A stretch of 64,000 nucleotides of DNA, taken from the NCBI GenBank assembly GCA_934636865.1, contig CAKUBI010000001.1, positions 124,001 through 188,000 of the forward strand. The letters run 5' to 3'. Below the pieces are notes generated by a model. It was not told where the DNA came from, made no database searches, and saw only the letters and a program-made list of their open reading frames with translations. Of the stretch, positions 39,369 to 64,000 are shown one piece after another. This DNA is from an uncultured Oscillospiraceae bacterium (lineage in GTDB: Bacteria; Bacillota; Clostridia; Oscillospirales; Oscillospiraceae). Made by a program: the position numbers and the translations under genes. Every line of letters starts with the position of its first letter. The stretch's first letter is position 1.

Positions 39369-39445
39369 TGGTGGAGACTGCTGGACTCGAACCAGTGACC
39401 TCCTGCGTGTGAAGCAGGCGCTCTAACCAGCTGAGCTAAGCCTCC
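39369..39445 (-). tRNA. tRNA-Val (anticodon CAC)
   Basis: The cloverleaf on the minus strand has acceptor GGAGGCT / AGTCTCC with one G-U pair, anticodon stem CCTGC / GCAGG and loop TTCACAC. CCA is encoded, giving 77 nt in total. It is last of three tRNA genes in the cluster. Confidence 0.95.
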
Positions 39446-39454
39446 ATATAAAGG

Positions 39455-39529
39455 TGGTGACCCGTACGGGATTCGAACCCATGTTACAGCCGTGAAAGGG
39501 CCGTGTCTTAACCACTTGACCAACGGGCC
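39455..39529 (-). tRNA. tRNA-Glu (anticodon TTC)
   Basis: The cloverleaf on the minus strand has acceptor GGCCCGT / ACGGGTC, anticodon loop CTTTCAC closed by CGGCC / GGCTG, and T-loop TTCGAAT. CCA is encoded, giving 75 nt in total. Confidence 0.96.
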
Positions 39530-39537
39530 ATATGAGA

Positions 39538-39561
39538 CACGGGATGCTTTCGCATCCCGTG
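39538..39561 (-). other. Stem-loop between tRNA-Met and tRNA-Glu
   Basis: CACGGGATGC / GCATCCCGTG form a perfect 10-bp stem with a 4-nt loop. No T-run follows, so it is probably an RNA processing signal in the polycistronic tRNA precursor. Confidence 0.65.
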
Positions 39562-39565
39562 CATC

Positions 39566-39642
39566 TGGTAGCGGCACCTGGATTTGAACCGGGGACACTG
39601 CGGGTATGAACCGCATGCTCTAGCCAGCTGAGCTATGCCGCC
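39566..39642 (-). tRNA. tRNA-Met (anticodon CAT), elongator-type
   Basis: On the minus strand the acceptor GGCGGCA / TGCCGCT has a G-U first pair. The anticodon stem TGCGG / CCGCA has loop TTCATAC. CCA is encoded. It lacks the three G-C pairs of initiator tRNA. The T-stem CCCGG / CCAGG has one C-A mismatch. A tRNA-Ile with lysidine-modified CAT cannot be excluded from sequence alone. Confidence 0.88.
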
Positions 39643-41070: not shown

Positions 41071-41103
41071 GTGTCCCTTCGAAGCTTCCCTTCGAAGAAA
41101 CAC
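41071..41103 (-). terminator. Riboswitch expression-platform terminator of guaD
   Basis: On the minus strand a 14-bp stem (outer part GTGT / ACAC, inner part CTTCGAAG twice) with a 5-nt loop is followed by six U's (41065-41070). Its 5' arm starts at the last base of aptamer helix P1. Confidence 0.88.
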
Positions 41104-41170
41104 CCATAGCAGGACCTTTCGGCGGCCCCGTAGAAACTTTCGCGCCAAATAAGCGAAATTATATGAGCTT
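41101..41170 (-). promoter_or_regulatory. Guanine-class purine riboswitch aptamer upstream of guaD
   Basis: On the minus strand the three-way junction is complete. P1 is CTCATA / TATGGG. J1/2 is TAA. P2 is TTTCGC / GCGAAA with loop TATTTGG. J2/3 carries the hallmark GTTTCTA, and P3 has loop GCCGAAA. The nucleotide aligned with position 74 is C, which specifies guanine rather than adenine. The base aligned with conserved A73 is G and could pair with C53, an unusual change. A terminator follows directly. Confidence 0.9.
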
Positions 41171-41185
41171 TTTTCCTCTGCCCCA

Positions 41186-41214
41186 AGGATACCACGCCGC
41201 GGCGGGAAATGCAA
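41186..41214 (-). promoter_or_regulatory. Predicted promoter of the guaD riboswitch transcript
   Basis: TTGCAT and TATCCT are separated by 17 bp on the minus strand. The predicted start lies just before the aptamer. Confidence 0.65.
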
Positions 41215-61271: not shown

Positions 61272-62156
61272 ATGAACAAAAAGCCCATCATCGCCTTTTT
61301 ATACGACTTTGACAAGACCCTCTGCACGACCGACATGCAGGATTACAGCTTCATCCCCGCCCTCGGCTACACGCCAGACGAGTTCTGGAGCATCGCCAAT
61401 CGCTTCGGCTTTGAAAACCGCATGGACGGCCTGCTCGCCTACATGTACACGATGATCGAGGAGTGCCGCAAAAAGGGCATCCGCCTGAGCCGCGGCTATC
61501 TCGTCTCCTGCGGGCGGGCGATCGAGCTCTTCCCCGGCGTTTCCGACTGGTTCTCGCGCATCAACGCCTTCGGCGAGACGCAGGGCGTGGAGATCGAGCA
61601 CTATGTGCTCTCCTCGGGCCTGCGCGAGATCATCGAGGGCAGCGGCGTAAGCCACGAGTTTAAAGAGATCTACGCCTGCGAGTTTTTCTACAACGAGCAG
61701 GGCCTCGCCTCGTGGCCGAAGCTCGACGTCAACTTTACGAACAAGACCCAGTTCGTCTACCGCATCAACAAGGGCATTCTGGACGTCGCCAAGGACAAGG
61801 AGCTCAACGCCTCCATGCCAGACGATTCCAAGCGCATCCCCTTCACGAACATGATCTACATCGGCGACGGCCTTTCCGACGTGCCGTGCATGAAGATGAT
61901 GCGCGCCTACGGCGGGCAGGCCGTGGCCGTCTATCAGGACAGCAACCGCGCGGGCGTGGAGGACCTGCTCGCCAAGGGGCGCGTGGACTTCATCTTCCCC
62001 GCCGACTACCGCGACGGGACGCTGTTCGACACGACGATGAAAAACATCGTGCGCAAAATGGCAATCGCCGACGCGCTGGCGGAGGAAAACCAGCAGCAGC
62101 TGCGCGCGCTCGGGCGCGGGGAGCTGCCGCAGCAGATGGGGCTTCTCGGATGGTAA
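61272..62156 (+). CDS. HAD-superfamily hydrolase
   Basis: 294 residues with all four HAD motifs intact: DFDKTLC (nucleophile Asp12 in FLYDFDKT), SSG as motif II, a Lys in the third and IGDGLSDVPCM as motif IV. A helical cap spans about 30-100. It is probably a phosphatase; substrate unknown. AAAGGAG precedes the ATG. Its end overlaps the rlmA start by 7 bp. It contrasts with the catalytically broken HAD protein at 31.2-31.7 kb. Confidence 0.9.
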   Translation: MNKKPIIAFLYDFDKTLCTTDMQDYSFIPALGYTPDEFWSIANRFGFENRMDGLLAYMYTMIEECRKKGIRLSRGYLVSCGRAIELFPGVSDWFSRINAFGETQGVEIEHYVLSSGLREIIEGSGVSHEFKEIYACEFFYNEQGLASWPKLDVNFTNKTQFVYRINKGILDVAKDKELNASMPDDSKRIPFTNMIYIGDGLSDVPCMKMMRAYGGQAVAVYQDSNRAGVEDLLAKGRVDFIFPADYRDGTLFDTTMKNIVRKMAIADALAEENQQQLRALGRGELPQQMGLLGW

Positions 62157-62965
62157 GGCTGTGCTGCCCTGTCTGCGCCGGGGCGCTTGAAAAGCGCGCA
62201 GGGAGCTATGTCTGCCCGAAGGGCCACAGCTTCGATCTGGCAAAGAGCGGTTATGTCAACCTGCTGCTCAACAGCGCGCAGGGCCATCACGGGGACGATA
62301 AGCTCATGGTCCGCGCGCGGCGCGATTTTCTGGATAAGGGCTATTACGACCGCTTCATTGCTGCCGTCGCGGACGCGGCGGCAGAGTTCGCGCCCGCCGG
62401 CGCCGCCGTGCTCGACGCAGGCTGCGGCGAGGGGATCTATTCTCTCGCGGTGCTGCGCGCCATCGAGCGCGCGGGCAAGCGGGGAGCGCTCCTCGGCGTT
62501 GATATCTCCAAGACCGCGCTCCAATACGCGGCGAAGCGCTCGCGGGATTTCACGCTCTGCGTGGCCTCGTGCGCGCGCCTTCCCGTGCCGGACGGGAGCG
62601 TGGACGAGGTGCTCAACATCTTCTCCCCCTTCGTGCCGGAGGAGTTTGCGCGCGTGCTGAAACGCGGCGGGTATCTTCTGCGCGCCTATCCCCTGCGCGA
62701 GCATCTTTGGGAGCTCAAGGCGCTCATCTACGATGTGCCGCGCGACAATCCGCCCACGCCGCTTGAAGCGGAGGGCTTCCGTCTTGTGGAAACGCGCGAG
62801 GTGCGCGACGAGATTCATCTATCCTGCAATGAGGATATTCAAGCGCTGTTCCGCATGACGCCGTACTACTATAAGACCGGCGCGAAGGATCAGGAGAAGG
62901 CCGCGCGGGCAAAGGAGCTGGAGGTTCAATTAGCATTTGGGCTTGCCGTTTATCAGAGGGAGTGA
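62150..62965 (+). CDS. rlmA: 23S rRNA (guanine-N1) methyltransferase RlmA family
   Basis: A 271-residue SAM methyltransferase. The N-terminal zinc site is CCPVCAGAL...YVCPKGHSFD, followed by GYVNLL and the GDDKLMVRARRDFLDKGYY stretch. The SAM-binding loop is VLDAGCGEGIY. RlmA methylates G745 (or G748 in Gram-positives, the latter linked to tylosin resistance) of 23S rRNA; which one cannot be told. The start codon overlaps the upstream HAD gene, so translation is probably coupled. Confidence 0.92.
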   Translation: MVRLCCPVCAGALEKRAGSYVCPKGHSFDLAKSGYVNLLLNSAQGHHGDDKLMVRARRDFLDKGYYDRFIAAVADAAAEFAPAGAAVLDAGCGEGIYSLAVLRAIERAGKRGALLGVDISKTALQYAAKRSRDFTLCVASCARLPVPDGSVDEVLNIFSPFVPEEFARVLKRGGYLLRAYPLREHLWELKALIYDVPRDNPPTPLEAEGFRLVETREVRDEIHLSCNEDIQALFRMTPYYYKTGAKDQEKAARAKELEVQLAFGLAVYQRE

Positions 62966-62995: not shown

Positions 62996-63037
62996 AAAGG
63001 GGAATATTCTCTTTCTCAAAAGAGAATATTCCCCTTT
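62996..63037 (+). terminator. Long stem-loop after rlmA
   Basis: A perfect 19-bp stem (left arm 62996-63014 beginning AAAGGGGAATATT, right arm 63019-63037) with a 4-nt loop. It ends in TTTC, so termination is likely but the U-tract is short. Confidence 0.75.
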
Positions 63038-63343: not shown

Positions 63344-63493
63344 TTAATCTTTGGCGTTGATGTAGAGGTCTTCGGCTTTCTGCTGGGCGGCGATGAGGAT
63401 GTCTCTTGCGTCGCCGTAGTTCTGGGCGTCGAGCTTTTCCAATGCCTCGGTGGTCGCGTTGAAGAGCAAAAGATACAGGGGCTTGTAATCCAT
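63344..63493 (-). CDS. 49-residue small acidic helical protein
   Basis: ATG at 63493 with GGAGGA 7 nt upstream. The product starts MDYKPLYLLLFNATTEAL and is predicted largely helical (EKLDAQNYGDARDILIAAQQ, then KAEDLYINAK). Similar short proteins occur next to mobile elements in gut Clostridia, from memory; function unknown. It lies divergent from a ribbon-helix-helix gene across two palindromes. A promoter TTGCAA-17-TAATAT fits on this strand. Confidence 0.8.
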   Translation of the reverse strand: MDYKPLYLLLFNATTEALEKLDAQNYGDARDILIAAQQKAEDLYINAKD

Positions 63494-63506: not shown

Positions 63507-63535
63507 GTAATATAAATGTAGTATATTTATATTAC
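63507..63535. promoter_or_regulatory. Perfect 11-bp inverted repeat over the small-ORF promoter
   Basis: GTAATATAAAT (63507-63517) and ATTTATATTAC (63525-63535) are separated by 7 bp. The repeat covers the -10 region (63529-63534) and transcription start of the 49-residue ORF, a strong operator candidate. Confidence 0.75.
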
Positions 63536-63595: not shown

Positions 63596-63775
63596 ATGGC
63601 CTTTAAAATTCCGAGCGTGCCGCCCACGACCAATAAATCGGTGCGCTTTCCAAACGATATGCTGGAAGAGATCGAAAATGCGATTCGCGGCAAGGACTGC
63701 ACATTTTCGGCATTTGTCGTTGCCGCTGTCCGGGCGGCGCTGGATGATCTGAAAGAACAGGAAAACGACCGCTGA
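63596..63775 (+). CDS. Small ribbon-helix-helix (CopG/YlcI-like) DNA-binding protein
   Basis: 59 residues: MAFKIPSVPPTTNKSVRFPN, then helices DMLEEIENAIRGKDCTFSAFV and VAAVRAALDDL. The strand KSVRFP followed by two helices is the RHH pattern. Such proteins bind palindromic operators as dimers and often repress themselves or act as antitoxins. Two inverted repeats lie immediately upstream, between it and the divergent 49-residue ORF. The ribosome site is weak (GCGGGTGAAAA). Confidence 0.8.
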   Translation: MAFKIPSVPPTTNKSVRFPNDMLEEIENAIRGKDCTFSAFVVAAVRAALDDLKEQENDR

Positions 63776-63800: not shown

Positions 63801-63828
63801 TTGACAGCGCGGGAGAATTTGCTATAAT
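63801..63828 (+). promoter_or_regulatory. Strong sigma-A promoter of the 63.8-kb small RNA
   Basis: TTGACA and TATAAT, both perfect, are 16 bp apart. No ribosome site or open frame follows. Confidence 0.85.
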
Positions 63829-63834
63829 GAGCAT

Positions 63835-63930
63835 AGATAAGGCGCTGCGACAAGCGGTTGGCTCTATCAAATGAACGTTTTGCTAAGAAATCTTAGAAAA
63901 CCGTCACTTGGCCGAGTGGCGGTTTTCACC
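63835..63930 (+). ncRNA. Putative structured small RNA, antisense at its 3' end to a micro-ORF
   Basis: A transcript from the strong promoter would be about 95 nt. It contains a hairpin CTAAGA / TCTTAG (63883-63896) and ends in a terminator AAAACCGTCACT / AGTGGCGGTTTT with loop TGGCCG (63897-63926) and U's. The terminator stem overlaps, on the opposite strand, the last codons of a 27-codon ORF. The layout recalls type I toxin-antitoxin RNAs that converge on shared terminators. Not matched to a named RNA family. Confidence 0.65.
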
Positions 63931-63987
63931 TTTAATACGGATCGTGACGACACATCCAAAGATATGTAGTGTGATCGTAATAGGCAT
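63904..63987 (-). CDS. 27-residue hydrophobic micro-peptide (candidate type I toxin)
   Basis: ATG at 63987 with a perfect GGAGGT 7 nt upstream, at the very edge of the window. The product starts MPITITLHIFGCVVTI, hydrophobic enough to insert in a membrane, and ends in a basic, polar tail (RIKG then ENRHSAK). The tail is encoded by the antisense strand of the small RNA's terminator. Its promoter would lie beyond the window. Toxin function is inferred from size, hydrophobicity and antisense arrangement only. Confidence 0.6.
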   Translation of the reverse strand: MPITITLHIFGCVVTIRIKGENRHSAK

Positions 63988-64000
63988 ATCTACCACCTCC

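Follow-up and report, generated by a model that had tools for sequence, protein, structure and literature searches.

We propose, with a probability of roughly 0.7, that the right end of the window, by which we mean the whole 64,000-nucleotide stretch of DNA analysed here, carries the left half and the core of a type I toxin-antitoxin-like module, in which a small RNA (sRNA) gene and a short peptide gene converge (Table 1). The module family is real, is present in many gut Clostridia and is unnamed as far as our searches reach. Its layout, the coding conservation of its peptide, the strand asymmetry of its terminator and, in relatives, the leader that masks the Shine-Dalgarno (SD) sequence are each established from sequence, and from sequence, too, we infer the label of type I toxin for the peptide. 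A first-pass annotation of this DNA had already offered a reading of the toxin-antitoxin kind, which is now supported by conservation of the reading frame, by multiple copies and by a sibling module with a Hol_Tox peptide.

Table 1. Features of the module at the right end of the window (positions in the window).
Feature	Position	Strand	Basis or remark
sRNA promoter, TTGACA-16 nt-TG-TATAAT	63801..63828	+	12/12 consensus score
Small RNA, putative antitoxin, ~95 nt	63835..63930	+	both ends predicted
Conserved sRNA 5' hairpin motif, GGCGCTGCGACAAGCGGTTGGCTC	63841..63864	+	same motif opens the opposing mRNA in relatives
Terminator stem-loop of sRNA, antisense to ORF 3' end	63896..63927	+	-20.9 kcal/mol, z -5.1
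27-codon ORF (position with stop), MPITITLHIFGCVVTIRIKGENRHSAK, putative toxin	63904..63987	-	family dN/dS 0.21; AlphaFold2 beta-hairpin
Shine-Dalgarno GGAGGT of the ORF, 7 nt before ATG	63995..64000	-	ends at window edge
sRNA/ORF antisense overlap, last 8 codons + stop	63904..63930	both	coordinates

The sRNA promoter had been described as a perfect sigma-A promoter and is one, with the TG dinucleotide before its -10 box. It is the sole promoter-like site between 62900 and 64000, where shuffled sequences average 0.8 sites, and among relatives the sRNA promoter scores at least 10/12 in 73 of the 77 complete modules, against 0.6% of shuffles. The predicted transcript (~63835-63930) folds at -34.2 kcal/mol (z -3.8) and contains no complete ORF, the frame opened by the plus-strand ATG at 63871 continuing beyond the terminator to 63969; the earlier description of a structured RNA devoid of an ORF thus stands. 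A covariance model built from the sRNAs of the family (R1) scores the window's sRNA, itself among the 94 training sRNAs, at 82.1 bits, and the only other R1 match in the window is a shadow of the terminator on the minus strand (25 bits). At the gathering score, Rfam release 15 recognises three tRNAs and a purine riboswitch in the window, leaving the sRNA unmatched, and a single tRNA in 18 relative loci; lax matches to one copy in Vescimonas have E values of 2 or more. The three tRNA genes (Met, Glu, Val) and the riboswitch lie at 39369-39642 and 41087-41186 (-).

The stem that ends the sRNA had been annotated as an intrinsic terminator antisense to the 3' end of the micro-ORF, and its position bears this out; the annotated ideal ribosome site is present as well (Table 1). 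An automated terminator scan missed the stem because its T-run lies mostly within it. As the first-pass annotation had also claimed, the stem pairs better on the plus strand (-20.9 kcal/mol) than on the minus strand (-14.9 kcal/mol), on which G-U pairs become C-A. All 102 filtered sRNAs have the stronger terminator on the sRNA strand, with a mean difference of 5.7 kcal/mol in the 77 complete modules, figures that include a bias towards sRNA-strand strength, as the choice of stems was made on that strand and permitted G-U pairs. The asymmetry traces to the A of the stop codon, which leaves a C-A mismatch on the mRNA strand; of the 94 aligned sRNAs, 92 retain the U-G pair opposite the stop codon. 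In the same alignment, five of 18 predicted pairs have changed on both sides, a CG/UA exchange at the apex included. Such an asymmetry would favour termination of the sRNA over termination of the mRNA.

Relatives were collected with a pattern derived from the sRNA 5' motif, so that CTGCRRCAAGCGGTTRGC is conserved in the sRNA mostly because the search itself imposes it; this does not apply to the promoter, the terminator, the ORF and the mirrored motif of the mRNA. The pattern matched 18 stretches of viral contigs, eight of them with the module (nine others are unrelated, and L021 was set aside as a duplicate), and 85 stretches of genome contigs, 76 with a verified module (seven are unrelated, L078 is cut by a contig end, and L063 was set aside as a duplicate). 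The titles of these relatives are mostly Oscillospiraceae, Oscillibacter, Dysosmobacter, Flavonifractor, Faecalibacterium, Gemmiger, Anaerotruncus and unnamed Clostridia, with a few Blautia and Lachnospiraceae. Among 122 distinct anchors, 102 passed the promoter and terminator filters, 16 are unrelated, one (L078) is the truncated copy, and three were added by hand beyond the filter (L053 twice, L091); the sRNA alignment (A1) comprises 94 of the 102 sRNAs and the leader alignment (A2) 63 of 71 leaders. Complete modules number 77, the window included, and encode 65 distinct peptides of 24-29 residues. The multiple copies with conserved RNA-peptide overlap that the first-pass annotation had suggested looking for do exist.

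The sRNA is widespread and often repeated. R1 finds a match in at least 51 of 394 genomes in the order of Pseudoflavonifractor (G001; E<=1e-5), in at least 57 of 200 in its family (E<=1e-6), in at least 21 of 197 in the family of F. prausnitzii (G002) and, at class level, in at least 12 of 391 (centre included), with up to at least 12 matches in one genome; these genome counts are likely lower bounds, since the searches ran with stricter filters and capped the number of candidates scored, and an R1 match by itself does not show which peptide faces the sRNA.

The peptide shares with its relatives a core of approximately M[RP]IT(LT)xHIxxxTVTIxVK, after which the terminator stem, read in frame, supplies a tail, NRH(SAK/PGR/PAR/RAG); over no fewer than its final 27 nt, the ORF is perfectly complementary to the sRNA. 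The tail seems dispensable, and two copies end before it, one titled F. prausnitzii (L052, ...FTIKVRK) and the other L119 (...FTIRVKK). Upstream of the stem, dN/dS is 0.083 for 25 distinct MRIT cores and 0.209 for 35 distinct MPIT cores, whereas the two other frames of the same codons give values of 1.3 to 3.9. In the tail codons, dN/dS is 0.54 and 0.63 and dS is low (0.35-0.40), as is expected where an RNA stem is constrained. Lack of conservation of the frame was one of the outcomes that the first-pass annotation had named as refuting its reading, and the reading survives it: judged by its substitutions, the peptide is a real coding sequence with a core under purifying selection. Searches of Pfam, NCBIfam, PHROGs and PADLOC with the window-type peptide returned no convincing family (the best library match, to a retroviral SH3-like domain, reaches 13.9 bits against a cut-off of 27), and a sequence search of the PDB returned no match. 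The titles and abstract openings listed by literature searches gave no pointer to the window's peptide or RNA, and the string NRHSAK is absent from the literature texts searched.

The RNAs of the module also occur with peptides of other kinds. When the loci were scanned for converging motifs, 88 modules were recovered; a filter assigned 33 of them to other peptides, although three of these (L068, L070 and L134) are in fact window-type. Where R1 represents the sRNAs, a second covariance model (R2) was built from the leaders of window-type modules only and searched over 100 loci, mostly fetched for their R1 matches. It gave 76 matches, two of which fall on sRNAs; among the other 74, 72 lie opposite an R1 sRNA when compared with the best 117 of 152 rows of R1 matches (to E 6e-6, two shadow rows excluded). 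By our own reading, these 74 leaders precede 37 window-type peptides, a figure that includes training sequences (e.g. L146, L159), 29 other hydrophobic peptides, all outside the training set, and eight that are unassigned. The sibling kinds include MVTYSELFQ.../MTTSELFQ..., MFFSTYESIFVFISAICDLIQ..., MKKFVRILIWAILLLHIFLIKVR, MDYGWVILVLILATGYIIAIKKD and MEYMWTLLTLLVLREVLHEARRLLKVFRHKKK, together with the peptide of L204, MVTYEGLFAFGVMIIALIDLIIKNIDRK, which scores 28.5 bits with Pfam Hol_Tox, above the cut-off of 23.3; the other 10 of the 11 sibling peptides scanned fall below that cut-off. When genomes were searched, the Hol_Tox match adjoined its R1 match and a sub-threshold one (18.5 bits) adjoined another R1 match, and Hol_Tox exceeded the cut-off in one of five genomes searched, versus two of 14 controls. 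Different kinds can stand in tandem: L146 has two window-type modules and one MVTYSDLIQ module, and L123 has two modules of each of these kinds.

That the same RNA pair carries hydrophobic and Hol_Tox peptides is our main argument that the window's peptide would be a toxin too, and it bears on the possibility that the peptide is functional without being toxic, for instance a small membrane-associated or signalling peptide that is held at a low level by a cis-antisense RNA. We consider this unlikely. It draws on the strong purifying selection on the core, which speaks for function and not for toxicity, and on the copy in Vescimonas, which resides among ordinary chromosomal-type genes beside a PNPase gene. 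The sibling modules, however, carry unrelated hydrophobic peptides, mostly with basic ends and including the Hol_Tox member, and a single physiological function accounts less well than a set of toxins for such unrelated cargo under one tight control.

In the toxin reading, the RNA pair would be a conserved chassis and the peptide its exchangeable part. Tentatively, and with slightly more doubt than confidence, we extend this to a convergent RNA chassis for type I toxins across Oscillospirales on which unrelated peptides (Hol_Tox-like, other helical and beta-hairpin) are exchanged; under this extension, the window kind would be the first type I toxin with a beta-hairpin fold, and the 5' motif that is identical on the two RNAs would serve as a shared recognition element. 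No counterpart of such a motif on both RNAs appears in the portions of the descriptions of par (PMC7472228) and of TxpA/RatA (PMC12390103) that are drawn on here.

The structure predicted for the peptide modifies one of the earlier claims. The product had been described as hydrophobic with a basic tail; the peptide is instead amphipathic with beta periodicity, which goes against a simply hydrophobic product, and its cationic character stands. The hydrophobic moment is larger at 170 than at 100 degrees in 64 of 65 window-type peptides, versus three of 14 sibling peptides, and net charge averages +4.9 among window-type peptides and is +3 for the window's own. AlphaFold2, given a 30-residue reading of the window (three codons longer than the ORF) and 48 relatives, returned a beta-hairpin with strands at residues 6-12 and 15-21 (mean pLDDT 86, pTM 0.40), and from single-sequence input it returned a single long helix for the sibling peptide of L079 (pLDDT 90), models that weigh little for peptides this short. 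The window-type peptide is thus probably a cationic, amphipathic beta-hairpin.

With the ribosome site as its last feature, the window leaves out the 5' half of the opposing mRNA, which is known from relatives only. There the mRNA opens with the sRNA's own motif, GGCGCTGC...GGCAGGCGGTTRGC, in 74 of 75 readable modules (L094 fails the pattern). In L041 and L089, an insertion between motif and SD places the motif 205 and 123 nt before the start codon, versus the usual ~50-66. A second leader hairpin pairs the SD fully in 62 of the 75 relatives and to at least 80% in 70, and the leaders fold with a mean z of -3.0 against mononucleotide shuffles. The stems that pair the SD vary between leaders (CACCACCC/GGGGGUG, CUUCCC/GGGAGG, AUCUCC/GGAGGU), which we read as compensation; of the 12 pairs in the gapped leader alignment, RNAalifold finds just two in which both partners have changed. 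An mRNA promoter scoring at least 9/12 is present in 35 of 71 modules, versus 5% of shuffles; the promoters are convergent in the family, and the window's own mRNA promoter lies beyond its edge. Past base 64000, we predict that the plus strand continues with an anti-SD sequence and then with the inverted motif (the reverse complement of GGCGCTGC..GGCAGGCGGTTGGC), to which about half of such modules would add a recognisable promoter that points back.

Within one module, the same triplet follows CGG in sRNA and mRNA in 58 of 83 cases, versus 31.4 expected by shuffling with kinship uncontrolled. A kissing contact through GGUURGCC (self-complementary with G-U pairs, by our own reading) was considered and dropped, as three TCA/TCA modules break the pairing. 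A second contact between sRNA and mRNA, at the leader or the start codon, was not found in the 38 modules analysed (every second one; none with z<-2), and pairing energy outside the overlap is -27.1 kcal/mol for cognate and -27.3 kcal/mol for non-cognate pairs. Diversification of the terminator loop among the copies of one genome, which orthogonal antitoxins would be expected to show, is unsupported: the loop is identical in 11 of 66 within-genome pairs versus 6.5 expected by shuffling, and in five of 23 versus 2.3 when complete modules only are counted, so that copies are, if anything, more alike.

Some sRNAs have both promoter and terminator and face no intact peptide gene (L092, L010, L065, L099 and the minus strand of L004, as well as second copies in L034, L060, L062, L088 and L098). 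Several have a complete module within a few hundred bases, and L099 and L052, both from Faecalibacterium, look by eye like the lost and the kept version of one site; these sRNAs could be remnants or antidotes in trans. The existence of such copies (L010, L065, L092, L099, the minus strand of L004 and others) is what would be expected if the functional product were a trans-acting sRNA and the ORF a by-product of its terminator stem. This reading is already disfavoured and, in our estimate, very improbable, as dN/dS is 0.08-0.21 upstream of the stem, and both the SD and the leader that masks it are conserved.

Less probable still is a MITE-like repeat element with terminal inverted repeats, in which promoters and ORF would be incidental. 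The shared 5' motif does form an inverted repeat at both ends of the module, copies are both tandem and dispersed within one genome, and the DNA similarity between the window and its nearest relative covers the module and excludes the upstream gene. A repeat element, however, leaves coding selection, SD masking and strand asymmetry unexplained, and the repeat on the sRNA side comes after the promoter in 73 of 77 modules. A chance arrangement of promoter, hairpin and micro-ORF is refuted by 77 complete modules that share it.

The nearest copy found lies on the 861-kb replicon of Vescimonas fastidiosa, which matches the last 200 bases of the window eight times; this copy has 80% DNA identity over 181 bases, and the similarity spans the module and stops short of the upstream gene. 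The copy is flanked by ordinary chromosomal-type genes, adjoining the PNPase gene, and no gene is listed for it in the gene table of PLSDB, which is incomplete. In the window, the gene directly upstream of the module (63596-63775, +) encodes a 59-residue protein of the NCBIfam family YlcI/YnfO (NF041551; 44.5 bits with a cut-off of 30 bits, E 1.2e-11), and Vescimonas has a helix-turn-helix gene in its place. A 14-nt near-perfect palindrome at 63507-63535 may be an operator of the YlcI/YnfO gene, and a 49-codon ORF, MDYKPLYLLLFNATTEALEKLD..., lies at 63344-63493 (-). Farther upstream, a perfect 19-bp inverted repeat with a 4-nt loop (AAAGGGGAATATTCTCTTT, 62996-63037) follows an ORF that ends at 62965 and is probably its terminator. 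The HAD-like protein encoded at 61272-62156 is 79.7% identical to a V. fastidiosa protein, and the ORFs near the module look chromosomal.

Returning to the toxin-antitoxin reading, we propose a mechanism in which each step beyond the overlap of the two genes is conjectural. The sRNA, made on the plus strand from a very strong promoter, and the mRNA, made on the minus strand, would converge on one terminator region. The sRNA is expected to pair with the 3' end of the mRNA, beginning at the GC-rich stem-loops that the two transcripts share, and the resulting duplex would cover 27 nt of the ORF, or a longer stretch if the mRNA extends past the stem. Pairing would lead to degradation of the mRNA or hold it silent, and it is possible that RNase III removes the duplex, as in TxpA/RatA. 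Free mRNA would be kept silent by the leader hairpin, with its masked SD, until it is refolded. Upon a shortfall of the sRNA, the peptide of 24-29 residues would be made and would harm the cell, the membrane being the most likely target.

If this proposal is true, common human gut bacteria carry, often in multiple copies, an RNA-controlled toxin system with a swappable peptide, and the question of which part defines the identity of a type I system becomes directly testable. Covariance models of both RNAs should then find such systems without knowledge of the peptide, and the beta-hairpin peptide would add a new structural class to the type I toxins. The module is easily overlooked because the incomplete table of PLSDB lists no gene at the Vescimonas copy and because the peptide falls outside the family libraries searched.

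In TxpA/RatA, the two RNAs overlap in antisense at their 3' ends. The window's module resembles the TxpA/RatA and SprG/SprF types in this 3'-end overlap, and searches of Rfam and Pfam found no RNA or peptide kinship with either. According to the part of the source drawn on here, RNase III cleaves the duplex that TxpA and RatA RNAs form (PMC12390103).

The likeness to par that the first-pass annotation had noted holds in part. As portrayed in the portion of the source used here, par of pAD1 has convergent promoters, complementarity at a shared terminator, an SD-masking leader and a short peptide, all as in the present module, and formation of the RNA complex begins at the terminator loops (PMC7472228). 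The direct repeats DRa and DRb, which provide par with a second complementary region, were not found here; the shared 5' motif is instead inverted, so both RNAs carry the same letters. The small RNA of par measures ~40 nt, versus ~95 nt here. The terminator of par is shared and bidirectional; the stem of the present family is also shared, and its mRNA strand is the weaker one in all 102 cases. The window's peptide also lacks the PXXXG motif that Fst carries in a hydrophobic helix, is predicted to form a beta-hairpin and has no Pfam match. Membership in par/Fst is therefore rejected on account of the missing direct repeats and of the peptide. The Pfam family Hol_Tox (PF16935) offers a different connection: the sibling peptide of L204, which has the same RNA halves, exceeds its curated cut-off, and the window's peptide does not match it.

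More broadly, the membrane-acting type I toxins covered in the reviewed text drawn on here have fewer than 60 residues and are cationic towards the C-terminus, as is the window's peptide (PMC8309996). They are alpha-helical in the same text, in contrast to the window type, with its beta periodicity in 64 of 65 peptides and its AlphaFold2 beta-hairpin. The usual helical, hydrophobic peptide of type I systems is not what window-type modules are predicted to encode. Such a peptide is not universal among type I toxins, as SymE and RalR are described as cytosolic in the part of the survey consulted (PMC12390103). In layout, the module agrees with a type I toxin-antitoxin system, the antisense RNA gene overlapping the gene for the peptide's mRNA, and it likewise agrees in having a small, conserved peptide whose SD and substitution pattern (dN/dS 0.08-0.21) point to a translated frame.
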